This document shows, piece after piece, positions 53,897 through 63,645 of a DNA stretch of 64,000 nt (position 1 is its first letter; each line of letters opens with the position of its first letter). The position numbers and the translations under genes were made by a program. Below the pieces are notes generated by a model, which did not search any database, was not told where the DNA came from, and worked only from the letters and a program-made list of their open reading frames with translations. The stretch comes from Thermotoga petrophila RKU-1 (GTDB taxonomy: Bacteria; Thermotogota; Thermotogae; Thermotogales; Thermotogaceae), in assembly GCF_000016785.1 (NCBI RefSeq), contig NC_009486.1, positions 1,488,001 through 1,552,000 on the forward strand, given 5' to 3'.

Positions 53897-54883
53897 GTGC
53901 CCTCTATCAAAGATGTAGCAAGGCTCGCTGGTGTTTCTATAGCAACTGTTTCGCGCGTGATAAATGGTTATGATAACGTCTCGGAAGAGACGAGAAAGAG
54001 AGTAATCGACGCCATCAGAAAGCTCAACTATCACCCTGTGTACGCTGTGAAGGGGGCTGTTTTAAAGAGAACTATAGGAGTTCTCGTCCCCAACTTTGGG
54101 GGCTTTCACTACAACGAGATATTGACGGGCATAGAAAAAGAAGCGATAAAGAGAGACTTCACCCTCATGATTTCAACAACACTTCACAGGACCTCTGTGG
54201 AGCTGGAAAGACTGGAGGTTTTCTTTGCGAAAAGAGTGGATGGTATCATAGTCTGCTCGTCGAAGAAGGACGAGGAACAACTCGAAAGATTGATAAAGAG
54301 TGCCATTCCAGTTGTTGTGGTGGACAGGGAAGAACCGGAGATCAGGCTCGACAACGTTGGCATCGACAACTACGCCGCTGGAAGGATGTGTGCGAAGTAC
54401 CTTCTGGAAAAGGGGCACAGAAAGGTTCTCCTTTTGAAGGGTAGAAAAGACATTTATTCTTTTTCCGACAGAGAAAGAGGTTTCATAGATTACAGCACAA
54501 GACACGGAATAGATGTGAAAGTCACACCATGCGGTTATTTCGCTGAACACGGCTACCACGCGGTGGAAAGGTACCTGAAAAAACACGGCAGGGATTTCAC
54601 TGCGATCTTTGCAATAAACGATCTTTCGGCCTTCGGTGCGCTCAAAGCACTTCACGATCTTGGTGTATCTGTTCCAGATGAAGTTTCTGTCATGGGATTC
54701 GACGACGATCCCATATCGAGCTATACCATTCCTCCACTCACCACGGTGAGACAACCGAGGGAAGAGATGGGAAGAGTGGCCTTTGAGATTCTTTACGAGA
54801 GACTTTCCGGGAAGAAAGGGGTTGCGAGAAGAGTCGTTCTACCTGTTGAGATCATCGAAAGAGAATCCGTGAAACAACTATAA
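53897..54883 (+). CDS. LacI-family transcriptional regulator (mannan locus)
   Basis: A 328-aa repressor. The HTH and hinge are SIKDVARLAGVSIATVSRVINGYDNVSEETRKRV, followed by GVLVPNFGGFHYNEILTGIEKEA in the sugar-binding domain and the usual GFDDDPISSYTIPPLTTV. GTG at 53897 has AGGGGATTGAA upstream and starts 1 nt after the OppF-type gene, so it belongs to the importer operon. It probably regulates that operon, possibly at GAGATAGCGATCTC (48364-48377). Gluco- or manno-configured sugars are plausible effectors. Confidence 0.9.
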   Translation: MPSIKDVARLAGVSIATVSRVINGYDNVSEETRKRVIDAIRKLNYHPVYAVKGAVLKRTIGVLVPNFGGFHYNEILTGIEKEAIKRDFTLMISTTLHRTSVELERLEVFFAKRVDGIIVCSSKKDEEQLERLIKSAIPVVVVDREEPEIRLDNVGIDNYAAGRMCAKYLLEKGHRKVLLLKGRKDIYSFSDRERGFIDYSTRHGIDVKVTPCGYFAEHGYHAVERYLKKHGRDFTAIFAINDLSAFGALKALHDLGVSVPDEVSVMGFDDDPISSYTIPPLTTVRQPREEMGRVAFEILYERLSGKKGVARRVVLPVEIIERESVKQL

Positions 54884-54908
54884 AAGCCCCTCCGAAGAGG
54901 GGCTTTTT
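54882..54908 (+). terminator. Terminator of the oligosaccharide importer operon
   Basis: Hairpin AAAGCCCCTC-CGAA-GAGGGGCTTT followed by TT, beginning at the LacI stop codon. The minus-strand pseudogene reading frame ends within it. Confidence 0.85.
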
Positions 54909-55190
54909 CATCTTTCCTTTCTCAGGTACATGTCTATTCATTTTGCTGCGGTATATCCATCTGCAATACCGGGAATGATATCCGGACCGTGGACGATGTC
55001 TCCTTCTGTGAACAACCATTCCACAGGGATCTGGTTGTACTCGTTTGTTTTGATCCTTCCCCTGACGAATTCGAATTTGCTCCGTATTTCTTCGGGCGAG
55101 TAAGAATAATCCGGTCTTCCTTCGGATTTATAGCGTCCCTCTTTTCAAGATCCTCTTCATTATGTAAATCAAACACAGAAATATTCATTT
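54908..55190 (-). pseudogene. C-terminal remnant of a GltD-like NADPH oxidoreductase (glutamate synthase beta-type)
   Basis: No intact gene lies here, but one minus-strand frame from about 55130 to 54941 reads YSPEEIRSKFEFV, then VEWLFTEGDIVHGPDIIPG and IADGYTAAK. This is the C-terminal FAD-binding signature of GltD/glutamate-synthase-beta proteins. An in-frame TGA at 54938-54940 stands where Gly is expected; beyond it the frame continues IDMYLRKER to a second TGA at 54908-54910. Upstream another stop closes the frame, so the N-terminal part is lost and a frameshift is likely. From memory, T. maritima has a glutamate synthase beta-like gene next to this LacI gene, at the end of a large NADH-dehydrogenase/Mbx-like cluster. 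The rest of 54884-55353 holds only the promoter/operator of the next operon. Confidence 0.75.
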
Positions 55191-55258
55191 TTTTGCTGTA
55201 AAAGTCGATCTCAAGAAATTATTTGGAAATAACATCGAAAATCTCCTCGGGATATCGT

Positions 55259-55293
55259 TTGACATCGCGGTAACTTTCACGGTAACGTTTACG
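55259..55293 (+). promoter_or_regulatory. Promoter and LacI-type operator of the galactan importer operon
   Basis: TTGACA (55259-55264) with an 18-nt spacer to TAACGT (55283-55288). The -10 lies inside CGGTAACGTTTACG (55280-55293), which has the same core (CG-N2-AACGTT-N2-CG) as the perfect palindrome CGTGAACGTTCACG before the beta-galactosidase gene. A second CGGTAAC half-site lies at about 55268. The LacI protein encoded at 62644 is the likely ligand-responsive repressor. Confidence 0.55.
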
Positions 55294-55353
55294 TATGGTA
55301 ATATCTATCTGGATGGTATTGGAACACTCGATATCTAAGGAGGTGAAGGTGGT

Positions 55354-56529
55354 ATGAAAAAATTTCTGGTGATCGCTTTGCTTGTCGTTTCCCTCGTTGT
55401 CCTCGCTCAGCCGAAACTCACCATCTGGTGCTCTGAGAAGCAGGTCGATATCCTTCAAAAACTCGGAGAGGAGTTCAAGGCAAAGTACGGCGTAGAGGTT
55501 GAAGTGCAGTACGTGAACTTCCAAGACATCAAGTCCAAGTTCCTCATAGCAGCTCCTGAAGGACAGGGTGCGGATATCATCGTTGGAGCACACGACTGGG
55601 TAGGCGAACTCGCAGTCAACGGTTTGATCGAACCCATTCCGAACTTCAGTGATCTGAAGAACTTCTATGAAACTGCCCTCAACGCGTTCTCTTACGGTGG
55701 AAAACTCTACGGTATTCCCTACGCCATGGAAGCAATAGCACTCATCTACAACAAGGACTACGTTCCTGAACCCCCAAAGACCATGGACGAACTCATAGAG
55801 ACAGCAAAACAGATCGATGAAGAATTTGGAGGAGAAGTGAGAGGTTTCATCACCTCAGCGGCCGAGTTTTACTACATTGCTCCTTTCATTTTCGGATACG
55901 GTGGATACGTATTCAAACAGACAGAAAAAGGACTGGACGTCAACGATATCGGACTGGCCAACGAAGGAGCCATCAAGGGTGTGAAACTCCTCAAAAGATT
56001 GGTTGATGAGGGAATACTGGATCCCAGTGACAATTATCAGATCATGGATTCCATGTTCAGGGAAGGCCAGGCGGCGATGATCATCAACGGACCGTGGGCC
56101 ATTAAGGCGTACAAGGATGCAGGAATAGACTATGGTGTAGCCCCAATCCCCGATCTGGAACCTGGCGTTCCTGCAAGACCTTTCGTTGGGGTCCAGGGCT
56201 TCATGGTGAACGCAAAATCCCCAAACAAACTCCTTGCCATCGAATTCCTGACCAGTTTCATTGCAAAAAAGGAAACGATGTACAGAATCTACCTTGGAGA
56301 TCCAAGACTTCCCTCCAGAAAGGACGTGCTCGAACTTGTGAAAGATAACCCAGACGTAGTTGGCTTCACACTGAGCGCAGCCAACGGTATTCCAATGCCC
56401 AACGTTCCACAGATGGCCGCTGTCTGGGCCGCTATGAACGATGCGCTCAATCTCGTTGTGAACGGAAAAGCAACGGTCGAAGAAGCGCTCAAAAACGCCG
56501 TTGAAAGAATCAAAGCTCAGATTCAGTAA
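55354..56529 (+). CDS. malE: Maltose/galactan-type ABC solute-binding protein (MalE-like)
   Basis: A 391-aa binding protein. The Sec signal is MKKFLVIALLVVSLVVLAQ. The mature chain has LTIWCSEKQVDILQKLGEEFKAKYGVEVEV, GADIIVGAHDWVGELAVNGLIEPI, ALIYNKDYVPEPPKTMDELIE, AAMIINGPWAIKAY and VGVQGFMVNAKSPNKLLAIEFL, all typical of MalE. T. maritima-type MalE2 proteins bind maltose and longer glucans, but the galactanase downstream raises the option of galactooligosaccharides. AAGGAGGTGAAGGTGG precedes the ATG. Confidence 0.92.
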   Translation: MKKFLVIALLVVSLVVLAQPKLTIWCSEKQVDILQKLGEEFKAKYGVEVEVQYVNFQDIKSKFLIAAPEGQGADIIVGAHDWVGELAVNGLIEPIPNFSDLKNFYETALNAFSYGGKLYGIPYAMEAIALIYNKDYVPEPPKTMDELIETAKQIDEEFGGEVRGFITSAAEFYYIAPFIFGYGGYVFKQTEKGLDVNDIGLANEGAIKGVKLLKRLVDEGILDPSDNYQIMDSMFREGQAAMIINGPWAIKAYKDAGIDYGVAPIPDLEPGVPARPFVGVQGFMVNAKSPNKLLAIEFLTSFIAKKETMYRIYLGDPRLPSRKDVLELVKDNPDVVGFTLSAANGIPMPNVPQMAAVWAAMNDALNLVVNGKATVEEALKNAVERIKAQIQ

Positions 56530-56542
56530 CATAAAATTTTAC

Positions 56543-56562
56543 GGGGCTGGGTTTCCAGCCCC
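56543..56562 (+). terminator. Intercistronic hairpin between malE-like and malF-like genes
   Basis: GGGGCTGG-GTTT-CCAGCCCC, 8-bp stem, followed by TTCC rather than a T-run. It is more likely an mRNA-stability or attenuation element than a full terminator. Confidence 0.6.
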
Positions 56563-56588
56563 TTCCATACGTTCAGGGAGGGAAAACA

Positions 56589-58322
56589 GTGAAAAACATC
56601 GTTAAATTGTTTCTCTGGTTTCTTCTTGCCATTTTGAACATCGCTCTCTTCTGGGCAGGTGTTTTTCTTTTCCAGAACGAGTATTACGAACTTTCGATAG
56701 TGCTTTTCTCTCTGTTAGTTCTAATAGATTTCTTCATCATCAACCCAAAGGGATATCCTTACAGATACACCATACCTGCTCTTGTTCTGCTTTTTGTTCT
56801 TGTACTCTATCCGATATACTTCACCTTCAAAGTGGCATTCACCAATTATGGAACGGGCCACTTCATGTCGAGACAGGAAGCTATAGAGAGACTTCTCTAT
56901 GACCCAAATTTTTCCTATGTGGTAGATTCGACTCCTGTTTCATATAAGGTGTTCGTGGTGTACGACGGCCTCTCTCCCACTGATGACTTCCTAATACTTT
57001 TCAAAACGGGAGATACCATTTTCCTTGGTGAAAGACCGAAACCAGTTGTCGCACGAGGTCAGGAGGTTCTCCTGAGTCAGTTCAATCTGGTTCCGATCAC
57101 GGGTGAAACGATCTCACTGAACAGCGACACCTTCAGGATTGTTCCATGGCCTGCGGATCTCTCGGAGATCAATCTTGTAGTACGTGGTGAGAAGACCTAC
57201 AAGAGCTTCTACTCACCCGATGACGAGATTCTGAGGTTGAATGCACCTTACTTCAAGAGCAGAATAGCTCAGGGTTATCTGGTGAACGCAGAATACGTGC
57301 TTCCCGATGGAAAAAAATTGGCCCTGAGAATTGCTCCGGATGGAGAATGGAGATTCATGTACGTGGAGAGGCTCTACAGACTGGCTTACAAAGAAATATA
57401 CGACGGTGTGAAAATGAAGATAAAAACCACAGTAGTGAACAATCTCACGGGAAGAGAAGTGGTAGAACGTGAAGGTGCTTTCTACGATGTGGACGAAAAT
57501 GGGAACGAGACGTTCCTTGTTGGATTCATAGATTTTGTGGGATGGAAAAACTTCCTGAGGATCGTTAAAGATCCAAAGGTTTCCGGTCCTTTCTTCAGAA
57601 TATTTCTCTGGACTTTCGTGTGGGCTGTTCTCAGCGTGGTCCTTTCCCTCGCTGTGGGACTTCCGTTTGCGCTTGTTTTGAACAACCCAAGACTCAAGGG
57701 AAGAAACCTCTACAGGACGCTTCTGATCATTCCCTGGGCCATTCCAGTTTTCATTTCGGCTCTGGTCTGGCGCAATGGACTTCTGAACGAGTCTTACGGT
57801 GTGATCAACAAGTTCCTTTTACCTCTTTTTGGCCTCGAACCAATAAAATGGTTCAACGATCCCTTCTGGGCACGTGTGGGAGTCCTTCTCGTCAACGTCT
57901 GGCTCACGTTTCCGTACATGATGACGATCTCACTCGGTGCCCTTCAGAGCATTCCACCAGAGCTCTACGAGGTAGCGGCAATAGACGGTGCAGGAAGATT
58001 CAGGAGATTCGTACACATCACCTTCCCACTCCTTATGACCATCATTGCACCACTCCTCGTGAGCAGTTTCGCCTTCAGTTTCAACAACTTCACAATCATA
58101 TACCTGATCACGGGTGGTGGGCCTCCAATTCCTAACTCGACCACTCCAACAGGATACACAGATATTTTGATCTCTTACGTCTACAAACTGGCGTTTGAAG
58201 GTGGTCAGGGACAGGACTTCGGTTTTGCCAGTGCCATTTCAATACTCATCTTCTTCCTAGTCGGAGGAATCAGCTTCGTAAACTTCAAGCTGTCTGGTGC
58301 ATTCGAAGAGGTGAGCAGATAA
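56589..58322 (+). CDS. malF: ABC sugar transporter permease (MalF-like)
   Basis: A 577-aa MalF permease. N-terminal helices (about 5-60) are followed by YTIPALVLLFVLVLYPIYFTFKVAFTNYG. A large extracytoplasmic loop (about 95-330) equivalent to the MalF P2 domain contains FVVYDGLSPTDDFLILFKTGD and VVNNLTGREVVEREG. The core follows with RIFLWTFVWAVLSVVLSLAVGLPFALVLN and the EAA loop ELYEVAAIDGAGRFRRFVHITFPLL. Start is GTG at 56589 after GGGAGGG. No MalK ATPase gene follows, so an ATPase must be shared from elsewhere. Confidence 0.93.
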   Translation: MKNIVKLFLWFLLAILNIALFWAGVFLFQNEYYELSIVLFSLLVLIDFFIINPKGYPYRYTIPALVLLFVLVLYPIYFTFKVAFTNYGTGHFMSRQEAIERLLYDPNFSYVVDSTPVSYKVFVVYDGLSPTDDFLILFKTGDTIFLGERPKPVVARGQEVLLSQFNLVPITGETISLNSDTFRIVPWPADLSEINLVVRGEKTYKSFYSPDDEILRLNAPYFKSRIAQGYLVNAEYVLPDGKKLALRIAPDGEWRFMYVERLYRLAYKEIYDGVKMKIKTTVVNNLTGREVVEREGAFYDVDENGNETFLVGFIDFVGWKNFLRIVKDPKVSGPFFRIFLWTFVWAVLSVVLSLAVGLPFALVLNNPRLKGRNLYRTLLIIPWAIPVFISALVWRNGLLNESYGVINKFLLPLFGLEPIKWFNDPFWARVGVLLVNVWLTFPYMMTISLGALQSIPPELYEVAAIDGAGRFRRFVHITFPLLMTIIAPLLVSSFAFSFNNFTIIYLITGGGPPIPNSTTPTGYTDILISYVYKLAFEGGQGQDFGFASAISILIFFLVGGISFVNFKLSGAFEEVSR

Positions 58323-60793
58323 TGGTGCAGAGAAGAGGGAATATCTTTACACACATCTTTCTCATTTTCATAATTGCGGTGATTCTGTTTCCCGTTGTCT
58401 GGGTAGTAACAACGTCTCTCAGAAGAGATGAAGCGGCCTTTTCCTCGAAACTGTTCACGTCACGACTGACTCTGCAACACTACAGGGATCTTGTGGCACC
58501 CGAAAAGAATCTTCCTTTTCTCGTGCAGGATCTCCAGGCAATGATTTCAAAGGTAAAACCTTACGATACCTGGTCTGAGGAAGAACTCAAGGACGCTGTA
58601 GGGAGTTCTATCGAAAAAGTGAAATCCTATCTGTCAGAGACGGAGGCTAGGTTGAACGACGCTGTGAATTCCTTTGAAAGAGTTGATGCTTTTTTGAACG
58701 ATCACTCCGAAGAGATAAAAAACAGAACGATCGAGGAAATGAGGGAACTTCTTTCATCCATCCAGATACCGGATCTGAGTGATTCGGAGGAAAACAGAGC
58801 GGCTCTTTATCTCGTTCTTTCAAAGGAAAGATACAATTCAACAGCTCACAAGGCGTTGAAAGAGTTACTGGAAAGGTTCACGGGTGTTGACACCGGTACA
58901 AGAGACGGATACGAAAAAGCGATAGAGAGTCTGAAAGAAAGCTACGAAAAATTGGCTGATGGATACGATGGACTCATTGAAGAAACTCAAAGAGAACTGA
59001 ATGCTGTGAAAGAGGAGATGTCTTCTCTCAGACAACAGTACAGTGATCTCCAGGATGATGTAATGGAGGCCAATCTCGTGATCGAAAAAGACATAATACC
59101 GGAGCTGGAAAGAATAAAGATCTCACTTTCAGAACTCAACAATCTCAGGGAACAAATAAGACAAACTACGTTGAGAAGTCCATTTCCTGTGGATGATGAA
59201 GAATTCTCCCGAAACATCTCAGAAACCGTTCAGATGCTGAATGAAATCCTCGATGAGATGAGCACCTTCGCTGAATACGATTCGTTGAAAGATTTACTTG
59301 TGGAATTGAAAAAAGAGCTTACAAAACTCTCCGAAGGAAACGAAGATTTGAGAGACCGTCTTCTTTTCTCCGATCTTGTGAAAATCTACGAAGAGTTGCA
59401 TCCAAGGCTCATCAGAATTCTGAAGGAAGCAGTCGAAACTATTGCCAGTATAAAAGACAGAATAACAGTTCTGAGCGTTCTCAATGAACGTCTAAAGGAT
59501 CTTGAAATCCTGGAAAAGGATCTAACTGCGAAAATTTCTGAGTATCAGCAGAAAATTTCTGAGGTTCAGCAGAAACTGTTGGAGCCTCAGAGAACGCTGA
59601 ACCTTATCGTTTTCAGATACAATCTTGAAACAACGATCTCTTCACTTGAAAGAGTTAAAACTTTCAAAAAAACTGATCTCCTCAGATACTCTTCTGCTCT
59701 GAAGACTCTTCGAGATTTCATGAATTCTTACTGGGAAAAAGACGAACTCTACAGCAGGATATCCAGAGTGGTAAAGGAGATGCGATGGATAGAAGAGTAC
59801 AGAGATTTTGCGAGCAAATTCGACGTCTTCCCGGAGAATTTGAAGACAGTACTGAAAGAAATGCACAACTCACTGAGCGACCTCGAAAGATCTTACGGTG
59901 ATCTCGTATCTCTTTCATCTCAGGGAGTGTACGTGTCTTCAAGTGTTCTGAGCAGAATGTATGACATTGTGAAGATGGATTTCGTCAACAAAGTCAGGGC
60001 GAACATGTCAGTTGCATCGAGGCGGGCCGGTAACCTGATTGACCTTGTACCATTCTCCGAAGTTAAGAAAGACCTGAGAAATATAGACAGAGAGCTTTTC
60101 AGAATAGACCAGATCTGGAAACAGAAAACGAAACACTATTTCTGGCTGTGGGTTCTCAACTCCGTGATCGTATCCCTGATAGTGGCATTCATAACAACGA
60201 CCGTGTGTGCTATAGCGGCTTATCCATTCAGTAGAATGAGGTTCTTTGGAAGGCGTTACGGAATCATGGCACTCCTTCTGATACAGATGTTCCCGGGTGT
60301 GATCTTCATGATTGCCATATACGACCTTCTGAACTTCATGGGAAAGTACATTCCATTCATAGGAATTGACACTCTAGGTGGTTTGATCTTCGCATATCTC
60401 ACCAACATCGCTTACAACATGTACTTGATAAAAGGTTTCTACGACACAATTCCCACCTCGCTTGAGGAGGCAGCCATCGTCGATGGAGCAACGCGTTTCC
60501 AGAGTTTCTACAGGATCATAATTCCACTTGCAAGACCAATTCTCACGGTGGTGTTCCTGCTGGTCTTCATTGGAACGTTCAACGAATACGTTGTTGCGAG
60601 GATAATCCTTCAAAATGTGAGGCACTACACGTACGCTCTTGGTCTTCAAGCGTTCGCCACGGGTCCATATGAAACGGAATGGGGACTTTTCACAGCGGCA
60701 GCCCTTCTTGGAATGACACCGATGGTGATTCTGTTCCTCTCACTCCAGAGGTATCTCGTGAGTGGTCTTACAAGGGGTGCAGTTAAAGAATGA
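58322..60793 (+). CDS. malG: Giant MalG-like permease with long coiled-coil insertion
   Basis: An 823-aa protein where MalG normally has about 280-300. Helix 1 is FLIFIIAVILFPVVWVVTTSLR (about 12-34). A charged, mostly helical segment from about 60 to 605 has long heptad-like stretches (TEARLNDAVNSFERVDAFL, LEKDLTAKISEYQQKISEVQQKL). The normal MalG core then resumes with WLWVLNSVIVSLIVAFITTTVCAIAAYPFSRMRF and the EAA loop SLEEAAIVDGATRFQSFYRIIIPLARPI. By topology the insertion sits in the first extracytoplasmic loop, and could form a periplasmic stalk that reaches the toga or catches the binding protein. The ATG overlaps the malF stop (TAATG). The frame is intact; the insertion is not a fusion artefact. 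Confidence 0.92.
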   Translation: MVQRRGNIFTHIFLIFIIAVILFPVVWVVTTSLRRDEAAFSSKLFTSRLTLQHYRDLVAPEKNLPFLVQDLQAMISKVKPYDTWSEEELKDAVGSSIEKVKSYLSETEARLNDAVNSFERVDAFLNDHSEEIKNRTIEEMRELLSSIQIPDLSDSEENRAALYLVLSKERYNSTAHKALKELLERFTGVDTGTRDGYEKAIESLKESYEKLADGYDGLIEETQRELNAVKEEMSSLRQQYSDLQDDVMEANLVIEKDIIPELERIKISLSELNNLREQIRQTTLRSPFPVDDEEFSRNISETVQMLNEILDEMSTFAEYDSLKDLLVELKKELTKLSEGNEDLRDRLLFSDLVKIYEELHPRLIRILKEAVETIASIKDRITVLSVLNERLKDLEILEKDLTAKISEYQQKISEVQQKLLEPQRTLNLIVFRYNLETTISSLERVKTFKKTDLLRYSSALKTLRDFMNSYWEKDELYSRISRVVKEMRWIEEYRDFASKFDVFPENLKTVLKEMHNSLSDLERSYGDLVSLSSQGVYVSSSVLSRMYDIVKMDFVNKVRANMSVASRRAGNLIDLVPFSEVKKDLRNIDRELFRIDQIWKQKTKHYFWLWVLNSVIVSLIVAFITTTVCAIAAYPFSRMRFFGRRYGIMALLLIQMFPGVIFMIAIYDLLNFMGKYIPFIGIDTLGGLIFAYLTNIAYNMYLIKGFYDTIPTSLEEAAIVDGATRFQSFYRIIIPLARPILTVVFLLVFIGTFNEYVVARIILQNVRHYTYALGLQAFATGPYETEWGLFTAAALLGMTPMVILFLSLQRYLVSGLTRGAVKE

Positions 60794-60807
60794 AGGAGGT
60801 TGGTTTG

Positions 60808-62628
60808 ATGAGAGGGGTGCTTTTCGTGCTGATGATTTCTTCCATGGCCTTTGGTTTGATAGTCAACCCGGTGAAAAACCTGTGCGAGGATTTCATCTTT
60901 GGAATGGATGTTTCTATGCTCTACGAGATCGAGCAACTGGGTGGGAAATATTTCGAGAATGGTGTGGAAAAAGATTGTCTTGAAATACTGAAGAATCATG
61001 GAATAAACTGGATCAGGTTGAGGGTGTGGAATGATCCGAGAGACGAGAATGGAAATCCTCTCGGAGGAGGAAACTGCGATTACCTGAAGATGACAGAAAT
61101 CGCTAAAAGGGCAAAGAAACTCGGAATGAAAGTGCTTCTTGACTTCCATTACAGCGACTGGTGGGCGGATCCTGGAAAGCAGAACAAACCAAAAGAGTGG
61201 GAATATCTTCATGGAGAACTTCTGGAGAGGGCGGTTTACTCCTACACGAAACTTGTACTGAACCACATGCGAAGAAACGGGGCACTACCAGATATGGTCC
61301 AGGTGGGGAATGAGGTGAACAACGGTTTTCTCTGGCCTGACGGCAAGATTTCTGGAGAAGGTGCAGGTGGTTTCGACGGATTCACAAGACTTTTGAAAGC
61401 TGCCATCAAGGCCGTTAGAGAGGTTGATCCGGATATAAAGATCGTTATTCATCTGGCGGAAGGTGGAAACAACTCTCTCTTCAGATGGTTCTTCGACGAG
61501 ATCACAAGAAGAAACGTGGACTTCGATGTAATAGGTGTATCTTACTACCCGTACTGGCACGGAACCCTCGAGGATCTGAAAAACAACCTCTACGACATAG
61601 CCACAAGATATAACAAGGATGTGCTCGTTGTTGAAACAGCTTACGCCTGGACACTCGAGGATGGAGATGGTTATCCCAACATCTTCAATGGTGAAGAAAT
61701 GGAACTAACAGGTGGCTACAAGGCAACCGTTCAGGGACAGGCAACATTTCTGAGAGATCTCATGGAAGTGGTAAACAGCGTTCCCAACGGCCATGGACTC
61801 GGGATTTTCTACTGGGAAGGAGATTGGATCCCTGTGAGGGGGGCTGGATGGAAAACCGGAGAAGGAAACCCCTGGGACAACCAAGCTATGTTCGATTTCA
61901 GTGGGAACGCTCTCCCATCACTGAATGTTTTCAAACTGGTGAAAACATCATCGCCAGTGGAGATTGCGATAAAAGAGATCCTTCCTGTGGAGGTTACAAC
62001 CAACCTGGGAGAGGTTCCAAAATTTCCAGATGCTGTGAAAGTTCTGTTCAGCGACGATTCCATCAGATCTTTACCTGTCGAATGGAACTTTGATTCTGCC
62101 CTTGTTGAAGAATCCGGTGTTTACAAAGTGGAAGGCTACATTAAAGACATTGACCGGAAAATTTTCGCGACACTCACCGTGAAGGGTAGCAGAAACTATC
62201 TGAAAAATCCGGGCTTCGAAACAGGAGAATTTTCGCCTTGGCAGGTCTCGGGAGACAAAAAAGCGGTGAAAGTTGTAAAAGTCAATCCTTCAAGCAATGC
62301 GCACCAGGGAGAGTACGCAGTGAATTTCTGGCTCGATGAATCCTTCAGTTTCGAACTGTCACAAGAAGTGGAACTTCCAGCAGGTGTGTACAGAGTAGGG
62401 TTCTGGACCCATGGAGAAAAAGGTGTGAAGATTGCTCTGAAGGTAAGTGATTACGGAGGAGATGAACGATCTGTAGAAGTTGAAACAACGGGCTGGCTCG
62501 AATGGAAGAACCCGGAGATAAGGAACATAAAAGTTGAAACAGGAAGAATAAAGATTACCGTTTCTGTCGAGGGAAGGGCAGGTGACTGGGGGTTCATTGA
62601 TGATTTCTATCTTTTCAGAGAAGAGTAA
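60808..62628 (+). CDS. Secreted arabinogalactan endo-beta-1,4-galactanase, GH53
   Basis: Extracellular galactanase of 606 aa. The Sec signal is MRGVLFVLMISSMAFG. The GH53 barrel (about 25-390) has GMDVSMLYEIEQLGGKYFENG, WIRLRVWNDP, LLDFHYSDWWADPGKQNKP, the acid/base E169 in VQVGNEVNNG and the nucleophile E276 in VVETAYAWT. A BIG4-like region (about 400-460, VTTNLGEVPKFPDAVKVLFSD) and a C-terminal CBM-like beta module (about 465-606) follow. ATG at 60808 has AAGGAGG 8 nt upstream, placed at the malG stop. Confidence 0.93.
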   Translation: MRGVLFVLMISSMAFGLIVNPVKNLCEDFIFGMDVSMLYEIEQLGGKYFENGVEKDCLEILKNHGINWIRLRVWNDPRDENGNPLGGGNCDYLKMTEIAKRAKKLGMKVLLDFHYSDWWADPGKQNKPKEWEYLHGELLERAVYSYTKLVLNHMRRNGALPDMVQVGNEVNNGFLWPDGKISGEGAGGFDGFTRLLKAAIKAVREVDPDIKIVIHLAEGGNNSLFRWFFDEITRRNVDFDVIGVSYYPYWHGTLEDLKNNLYDIATRYNKDVLVVETAYAWTLEDGDGYPNIFNGEEMELTGGYKATVQGQATFLRDLMEVVNSVPNGHGLGIFYWEGDWIPVRGAGWKTGEGNPWDNQAMFDFSGNALPSLNVFKLVKTSSPVEIAIKEILPVEVTTNLGEVPKFPDAVKVLFSDDSIRSLPVEWNFDSALVEESGVYKVEGYIKDIDRKIFATLTVKGSRNYLKNPGFETGEFSPWQVSGDKKAVKVVKVNPSSNAHQGEYAVNFWLDESFSFELSQEVELPAGVYRVGFWTHGEKGVKIALKVSDYGGDERSVEVETTGWLEWKNPEIRNIKVETGRIKITVSVEGRAGDWGFIDDFYLFREE

Positions 62629-62643
62629 CCGGAGGGTTAGAAC

Positions 62644-63645
62644 ATGAAGAAAAAGTACGTTACGATCAGAGACATAGCAGAGAAAGCGGGTGTTTCCATA
62701 AACACAGTCTCAAGGGCACTCAACAACAAGCCCGACATTAGCGAAGAAACCAGAAGAAAGATACTGAAAATTGCACAAGAACTGGGATACGTGAAAAATG
62801 CCACCGCTTCCTCTTTGAGGAGCAAGCAAACGAACATCGTGGGGGTCATCATAGCCGACAGTGCCAACCCGTTCTACGCGGAGGTCTTGAAGGGAATAGA
62901 AGCCGCTTCGAGAAAGTACGGCTATCAGATCATGCTCATGAACACTGAGAGAATCTACGAAAATGAAGAGAAGGCTATAGAAGTGCTTCTCCAGAGGAGA
63001 GTCGATGGTCTTCTCATAACACCTGTTCAGGATAAATCAGACGATATAAGAGCTTTGATCGAAAGAAAAGTTCCCTTCGTCATAGTCGGCAGACACTTCG
63101 AAGAGTTAGAAGTGGATGAGATCCACAGTGATGAGGTAAAGGGAGGGTATCTTGCAACCAGACATCTCATAGAAAGAGGAAGAAAAAACATCATTATGAT
63201 CAGCGGATATCTGTTCAAATCGGCTGCCTACATGCGACTTGAAGGATACAGAAAGGCTTTGAAAGAGTACGGAATTCCATTCAGTGAAAAAATGATCATT
63301 GAAACAGACATTGACATAGAGAGTGGATATCGAGCGATGCGGGAAGCGATTGAAAAGGGACTTGAATTCGATGCGGTCTTCTGTTACAACGATCTACTCG
63401 CTTTTGGTGTGATAAAAGCCTTGAAAGAGTGTGGATATCGTATACCAGAAGATGTGGCTGTTGTTGGCTACGACGACATCGTTTATTCCTCTTTTGTTTG
63501 CCCCTCTCTGACAACGGTGAGGATAAAGAAGTTCGAAATGGGATATGAGGCGTTCAGGATGCTTCTTCAAAGATTGAAGGGGCGAAGAAAGAAAAGAAAA
63601 CGAGTAATCTTGGATGTGGAGCTCGTTGTGAGGGAAAGTGGATGA
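62644..63645 (+). CDS. LacI-family transcriptional regulator (galactan locus)
   Basis: A 333-aa LacI/GalR repressor. HTH and hinge: VTIRDIAEKAGVSINTVSRALNNKPDISEETRRKI. The effector domain has GVIIADSANPFYAEVLKGIEAAS, the RVDGLLITPVQ segment and VVGYDDIVYSSFVCPSLTTVRI. It lies between galactanase and beta-galactosidase genes. The likely targets are the related palindromes at 55280-55293 and 63676-63689. Galactose or a galactobiose-type sugar is the probable inducer. Confidence 0.92.
   Translation: MKKKYVTIRDIAEKAGVSINTVSRALNNKPDISEETRRKILKIAQELGYVKNATASSLRSKQTNIVGVIIADSANPFYAEVLKGIEAASRKYGYQIMLMNTERIYENEEKAIEVLLQRRVDGLLITPVQDKSDDIRALIERKVPFVIVGRHFEELEVDEIHSDEVKGGYLATRHLIERGRKNIIMISGYLFKSAAYMRLEGYRKALKEYGIPFSEKMIIETDIDIESGYRAMREAIEKGLEFDAVFCYNDLLAFGVIKALKECGYRIPEDVAVVGYDDIVYSSFVCPSLTTVRIKKFEMGYEAFRMLLQRLKGRRKKRKRVILDVELVVRESG

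Follow-up and report, generated by a model that had tools for sequence, protein, structure and literature searches.

The maltose transporter of Escherichia coli, MalFGK2, is a standard model of ATP-binding cassette (ABC) importers. An enlarged loop in the permeases MalG1 and MalG2 of the Thermotogales was published in 2008, with its function given as "as yet unknown" and the region regarded as a "relatively recent acquisition" (Noll et al., PMC2246101). The sections of that account consulted give no structure, and later work on the insert was not found in the open-licence literature searched. We analyzed a permease of this kind, encoded at positions 58322–60793 (+) of a 64,000-nucleotide stretch of the Thermotoga petrophila RKU-1 genome (NC_009486.1, 1,488,001–1,552,000; the whole stretch is referred to as the window). 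Given the 2008 report, the existence of the insert is not new; what is new is its predicted hairpin shape, its phylum-wide spread, copies in Dictyoglomota, a natural 638-residue variant, and a second enlarged permease. The insert forms a stalk that is real, extracytoplasmic, widespread and structured, and we infer that it may serve in docking the binding protein.

Two other elongated systems invite comparison. EsaA/YueB of type VIIb secretion is polytopic and carries, near its N-terminus, an extended extracellular domain several hundred residues long that can span peptidoglycan, residues 31–817 of YueB being given as 90% of the protein (PMC9600267). EsaA/YueB is a secretion component, whereas the window protein is an importer permease, and the likeness drawn here is one of layout. 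The neighbours of the permease (53897–63645) are sugar-uptake genes and regulators and do not form a type VIIb secretion locus, secretion genes not having been searched genome-wide; the structural matches listed contain no EsaA entry, which excludes no fold likeness. A long periplasmic coiled coil is described from the same group as the window, the Omp-alpha (OmpA1) rod of Thermotoga maritima (PMC3387000); unlike this rod, the window stalk is predicted to be an antiparallel hairpin within a permease loop.

We first consider the identity of the permease core and the size of the insert. The open reading frame (ORF) has an ATG start and no internal stop. PF00528 (BPD_transp_1) matched amino acids (aa) 631–816 (E 7.9e-13, 49 bits against a threshold of 26.4), and the NCBIfam MalG model NF008231 matched aa 608–823 with 247.3 bits, under its cut-off of 261; as this match is split by the insert into two stretches and its score lies under the cut-off, we class the protein as a MalG-type permease and not as an equivalog. 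In the genome search with NF008231, aa 3–55 corresponded to profile positions 9–60 and the main stretch began at position 82, indicating that roughly positions 61–81 are the part replaced by the insert. Residues up to about 60 thus form an ordinary MalG start, aa 62–605 (about 544 residues) are extra, and the final 218 residues are the MalG core. The sequence-only reading had described a MalG permease nearly tripled in size by an insertion of about 540 residues, and both statements hold (823 aa, compared with 296 aa in E. coli MalG). The first two hydrophobic segments are separated by 584 aa, compared with about 40 aa in the window's second MalG-like permease (36430; 265 aa, ordinary loop), which, as that reading also stated, lacks the insertion. 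A paralogue with the insert lies elsewhere in the same genome (44% identity over aa 1–822).

An AlphaFold2 (AF2) model of the window protein superposed on E. coli MalG chains with Z 21.8–24.9 over 250–281 residues at 35–39% identity (VIA-align; entries 3puv, 4ki0, 2r6g, 3rlf, 3puy, 3puz and 3fh6). The aligned model ranges run from aa 1–6 to aa 810–823 with the first transmembrane helix (TM1) in place, so that, as modelled, the protein has the MalG core fold, TM1 included, and shares it with the MalG of MalFGK2 (2R6G, 3PUV and others). The difference lies at the stalk position, where E. coli MalG has about 20 residues (approximately 62–80, alignment judged by eye). Since TM1 and the core both fit the E. 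coli structure and the insert loops out between them, the stalk is extracytoplasmic, as had been proposed; a cytoplasmic location, which would have contradicted the proposal, is ruled out by the model, the superposition and the positions of the hydrophobic segments. The predicted organization of the protein is as follows.

58322–60793, +: MalG-type permease with a stalk between TM1 and TM2, 823 aa (ORF, family profiles, AF2)
58346–58426, +: TM1 and its periplasmic exit (aa 9–35), highly conserved (conservation, AF2, hydrophobicity)
58427–58576, +: stem 1 (aa 36–85), an ordinary start of the MalG P1 region, then a helix at aa 64–76; insert from about aa 62
58577–58759, +: lower stalk, ascending helices (aa 86–146), probably antiparallel to aa 475–533 (AF2, coevolution)
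58760–58963, +: mid-stalk small-helix module (aa 147–214), the main length variable
58964–59161, +: upper stalk, ascending arm (aa 215–280), absent in the 638-aa variant (AF2, VIA-align, coevolution)
59162–59365, +: helical tip (aa 281–348), among the least conserved parts (AF2, VIA-align, conservation)
59366–59650, +: descending long helix (aa 349–443), of which aa 349–413 pair with aa 215–280 (models, coevolution)
59651–59743, +: mid-stalk return segment (aa 444–474; AF2)
59744–59920, +: lower stalk, descending helix (aa 475–533; AF2, coevolution)
59942–60136, +: stem 2 (aa 541–605), the best conserved end of the insert (W599 in 98/98 rows)
60137–60790, +: MalG core, TM2–TM6 with the EAA loop (aa 606–823; profiles, VIA-align)

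The insert is thus predicted to be a single antiparallel helical hairpin, with a lower bundle, an upper two-helix coiled coil and a helical tip, on the basis of two AlphaFold models, coevolution and the natural short variant. The model of the window MalG (34 sequences) had a mean predicted local distance difference test (pLDDT) score of 80.1 and a predicted template modelling (pTM) score of 0.59; its insert was nearly all helix, with pLDDT per 10-residue block mostly 75–96 and a minimum of 67 at the tip. A 923-aa relative (30 sequences) gave a mean pLDDT of 78.1 and pTM of 0.55, with the insert mostly at 85–96. Residues 214–413 superposed on the dynein stalk 3wuq over 136 residues (root-mean-square deviation (rmsd) 1.9 Å, Z 10.5), and aa 322–534 of the 923-aa relative, the same upper arm, matched dynein stalks with Z 9.1–9.6; such Z values for helical arms may mean nothing more than a likeness of arrangement, at most, to antiparallel stalks of the dynein/SMC type. 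In the coevolution analysis (102 sequences, effective number 77, a modest depth), the top pair was 101–522 (z 10.4), followed by 237–395, with 108–515 at z 6.4, and the best stripe overall was antiparallel, at 232/400 (mean 1.23, background standard deviation 0.21, best parallel stripe 1.01). The short variant (locus L108, 761–2677) is a complete 638-aa MalG with a MalF sequence upstream; by profile alignment it lacks the equivalents of aa 216–403, the upper arm and tip, a gap symmetric about the hairpin axis (215 + 404 = 619). It is represented by one contig of one genome, and plain MAFFT placement scatters its gaps. Between the window MalG and the 923-aa relative, the upper arm hardly changes in length (66 and 68 residues); the mid-stalk module exceeds that of the window protein by about 100 aa in the Mesotoga-type relative and is 47–48 aa shorter in three Dictyoglomota copies.

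Several observations weigh against this architecture. The lower-bundle antiparallel stripe (100/518) scored 0.889 and ranked sixth, below three parallel stripes (1.01, 0.96 and 0.89), and the pairing of the lower bundle therefore rests mainly on single pairs. The membrane core of the 923-aa model is poor (Z just 7.3–7.5 against E. coli MalG), its top structural match being the unrelated helical protein TTYH2 (Z 11.8, rmsd 7.8). Because AF2 used similar sequences, the AF2 and coevolution lines are not fully independent, and the height of the stalk, roughly 20 nm if its lower bundle, upper arm and tip are stacked end to end, is an estimate only (0.15 nm per residue).

Structure prediction, which the sequence-only reading had suggested as a check, thus points to a helical, partly coiled-coil stalk, and its description as helical and heptad-rich requires adjustment in the second term. 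The hydrophobicity power of the insert at the 3.6-residue period was 3.83 (99.9th percentile of shuffles, 1.53), in line with helix, and 0.05 at exactly 3.5 residues, with autocorrelations of 0.15, 0.11 and 0.21 at lags 3, 4 and 7; power at 3.6 and not at 3.5 indicates that heptads occur locally and not as one continuous register. A sequence search of PDB chains matched the insert only to weak other helical proteins (E 0.04 or worse). Foldseek searches with the whole model, the insert not being searched alone, returned coiled-coil entries from PDB only at E 7.5e-3 or worse and no match from BFVD at E ≤ 0.001, so that these negatives do not argue against a related fold.

MalG length was then compared across 103 Thermotogota genomes. 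We found 98 loci with long MalG ORFs (at least 700 aa; actual range 779–934 aa), one of which is truncated at the end of its contig; this number rules out an assembly or frameshift artefact in the window. These loci come from 93 genomes, five of which hold two. The remaining ten comprise one with the complete 638-aa form (G004), two with contig-cut copies (G022, G102), one with a broken frame (G041), and six without a visible long copy (G001, G002, G003, G018, G055 and G056), of which G001, G003 and G056 are less than 80% complete. The frame-broken copy noted, the long MalG of the more distant Marinitoga lauensis (L060/L146), may owe its break to a sequencing error in the assembly. Within the genus Thermotoga, five of seven genomes carry the orthologue (79–100% identity) and the other two the paralogue (43–44%), all with open frames. 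Poor conservation together with frameshifts in sister strains had been named as grounds for rejecting the insertion; the frames are intact in 7/7 genus genomes, and only the first half of that condition applies, in that sequence conservation is weak (mean identity 0.19 for the insert and 0.67 for the core in 48 non-redundant operons). Column conservation was about 0.7–0.87 in the core, 0.27–0.42 over most of the insert and 0.49–0.68 at its membrane-proximal ends, peaking within the insert in the stems. The ratio of nonsynonymous to synonymous substitution rates (dN/dS) was 0.10–0.18 for the insert and 0–0.03 for the core in four comparisons, with high synonymous divergence of the insert (1.4–2.0) in three of the four. 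Low dN/dS combined with low identity indicates that purifying selection maintains the stalk even as its sequence changes.

A tree of the core (129 rows, 118 different, 223 columns; outgroup branches very long) places E. coli MalG together with eight short copies from Thermotogota, of 285–305 aa (97/95), and does not unite long MalGs against short ones, leaving an unresolved fork among the 638-aa variant, a three-row family, the short group with E. coli, a ten-row family and the other 99 rows. The simplest reading, though not proven, is that the insert arose once, at the base of the Thermotogota or close to it, and was inherited through the phylum; given its presence throughout the phylum, the insert looks ancestral, in contrast to the 2008 description.

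The insert profile also matched a MalG in six of seven Dictyoglomota genomes, four with complete ORFs (746–799 aa) and two cut by contig starts, the seventh genome matching only through another coiled-coil protein. The four complete copies have MalF upstream and GH53 downstream, the same MalF-MalG-GH53 order as in the window, and at L201, L202 and L203 a MalE-type gene, malF, long malG and GH53 lie together. The Dictyoglomota MalGs form one clade (100/100) nested in Thermotogota rows, adjoining two Thermotoga-type clades (99/88). From its tag, we take TRQ7_08325 to be a Thermotoga protein. This protein is given as the nearest ortholog of the D. turgidum GH53 (PMC5167688). The likeliest reading of these sequences is that the operon moved to Dictyoglomota from a relative of Thermotoga. 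In a wider search, 50 of 290 genomes matched the insert at E ≤ 0.001 (at most four candidates scored per genome; seven of the 290 are the Dictyoglomota, six with MalG matches). Besides Dictyoglomota, whole-model matches came only from G301 and G159, whose proteins are identical to the ones in G066 and G044, both Thermotogota genomes, and the others were partial (best E 6.9e-10). A peptide-pattern scan matched 98 stretches, 38 of them relatives, all with Thermotogota titles except one "uncultured bacterium" and one Dictyoglomaceae; it missed the Dictyoglomota carriers L158, L160 and L161, and is thus either not exhaustive or made without those genomes.

The same loop is enlarged in another permease. 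Among 47 BPD_transp_1 places in the window's genome, with inspection outside the window confined to L226 and the 701-aa locus, a TM1–TM2 enlargement of more than 400 aa was seen in the two long MalGs and in one further protein, outside the window.

G000:C1:299445–301547, −: 701-aa permease (L005/L207)

Its hydrophobic segments at aa 4–22 and 502–520 leave about 480 aa in the TM1–TM2 loop. The other BPD_transp_1 open frames measure 217–387 aa, except two MalFs (595 and 596 aa) and a protein of 433 aa that partners the 701-aa permease; at L226 (1489–3114, −) lies another PF00528 permease, whose open frame spans 541 aa and whose first and second hydrophobic segments are roughly 250 aa apart. When matches to the 701-aa permease were sought in the 103 Thermotogota genomes, the best one had an open frame of 700 aa or more in 93, two of these being flagged with an in-frame stop, and was short, cut, broken or not listed in the other ten; in many genomes the C-terminal part alone aligned, and the loop was judged by frame length. 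Comparison of its insert with that of MalG showed no relation (hhalign probability 0.1, E 0.61, single sequence on one side), and a shared origin of the two is accordingly unsupported. That two permeases are enlarged at the same loop across the phylum argues for a role tied to the Thermotogota envelope.

The malG gene belongs to a sugar-uptake operon, its 5′ end overlapping the malF stop and its 3′ end the GH53 start, with a MalE-type gene upstream of malF-malG and a large P2-like region in MalF.

53897–54883, +: LacI-family regulator (Pfam scan)
55354–56529, +: MalE-type binding protein, 391 aa, signal peptide without a lipobox-like motif
56589–58322, +: MalF partner, 577 aa, about 265 aa separating hydrophobic segments 3 and 4 (P2-like)
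60790–62628, +: GH53 (endo-galactanase family), operon member (Pfam scan)
62644–63645, +: LacI-family regulator (Pfam scan)

The MalE-type protein scored 305.2 bits with NF007011 (cut-off 291) and MalF 377.6 bits with NF008232, just under the cut-off of 392. The adjoining GH53 gene suggests galacto-oligosaccharides as a possible substrate; mal1 of T. maritima is described as an apparent mannooligosaccharide transporter with maltose and maltotriose binding too (PMC2246101). The MalF adjoining the second long MalG of one genome (G091, L038) has just 415 aa, compared with about 577 in its relatives, and malF2 of T. maritima is reported as frameshifted (PMC2246101).

The function we prefer, tentatively and at somewhat less than an even chance, is that of a platform on which the soluble binding protein docks within a deep periplasm. 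We favor docking or capture because the stalk replaces a segment reported to contact MalE in E. coli, MalE should be soluble, and the toga is out of reach. The insert replaces E. coli MalG residues of about 62–80, which include 70–72, described from a simulation of MalFGK2E as "in direct contact with MalE", and the N-lobe of MalE interacts mainly with MalG according to evidence cited in the same paper (PMC3150292). In 84/84 complete operons the first 60 residues of MalE contain no lipobox-like motif, and such a protein should be free in the periplasm; in one MalE hit (L062), an N-terminal hydrophobic stretch may remain as an anchor. Given the MalG and MalF cores, the partial distance correlation between insert and MalE was 0.42 in the 48 operons (0.38 for the base and 0.28 for the upper arm plus tip), and that between insert and P2 was 0.51. 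The P2-MalE correlation of 0.31 dropped to 0.12 with the insert held fixed, and the MalF core-MalE value given the MalG core was 0.10. The stalk would then keep a freely diffusing binding protein near the transporter in a very wide periplasm and would guide and hold it beside the MalF/MalG gate, with the stems making specific contact and the upper arm widening the capture zone. To our knowledge, no such capture device has been described for a type I importer. The docking proposal made from sequence alone is therefore supported as plausible only, and several points speak against it. The MalG core-MalE correlation given the MalF core is already 0.40, the insert is near saturation in the distance test, and, as the distance correlations lack an unlinked-gene control, they offer a hint only. 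E. coli MalE is also soluble, yet its transporter works without such a stalk. Conservation of the upper arm and tip is very low (mean identity 0.15). Finally, the contact paper is a simulation, and the closer approach of MalG and MalE is absent from the crystal (PMC3150292).

Ranked second, and in our view unlikely, is an envelope spacer or anchor, in which the stalk contacts peptidoglycan or a scaffold such as OmpA1 rods without specific binding of MalE. Free sequence drift under a persistent helical architecture is what a spacer would be expected to show, and the same-place enlargement of a permease whose insert shows no detectable relation to this one (at least 700 aa in 93/103 genomes) points to the envelope rather than to one substrate system, as may Dictyoglomus turgidum, which is likewise described as Gram-negative and as possessing genes for an outer membrane (PMC5167688). 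However, neither a peptidoglycan-binding nor an SLH domain appeared in the Pfam scan at E ≤ 0.001, conservation is among the lowest in the tip, the expected site of an anchor, and the 638-aa variant dispenses with upper arm and tip. With about 50 nm between it and the cytoplasmic membrane (PMC3387000), the toga is also too distant for such an anchor. A stalk spanning to the outer sheath, as the sequence-only reading had considered, is rejected on the same ground, since even a fully helical ascending arm would be bounded at 0.15 nm × (315 − 86) = 34 nm; in addition, the tip is poorly conserved and Dictyoglomota share the stalk.

Long antiparallel arms could also pair in trans, so that stalks of neighbouring importers assemble into clusters; we consider this improbable, as the predicted hairpin can satisfy its pairing inside one chain and a specific interface would not be expected in so weakly conserved an upper arm. 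Least likely of all, and only a slight chance, is that the stalk is a tolerated ancestral insertion with little present function. Short MalGs do exist, in E. coli and, close to it in the tree, in the eight short Thermotogota copies, and insert identity is low, but the long ORFs in 93 of 103 genomes, the retention of the stalk in Dictyoglomota after the inferred transfer and the dN/dS values all argue against dispensability. A broader extension of the docking proposal, that Thermotogota importers repeatedly made the TM1–TM2 loop into a docking mast, independently in two families, with the MalG version moving with its operon to Dictyoglomota, strikes us as doubtful.

Together, these data revise the 2008 view of the region as confined to the MalG proteins of the Thermotogales, and recent. 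A naturally stalked MalG, together with its half-length variant, provides a ready system for studying how importers find their binding proteins in wide periplasms, and finding the same loop enlarged in a further Thermotogota permease suggests that this is a general adaptation of the envelope.

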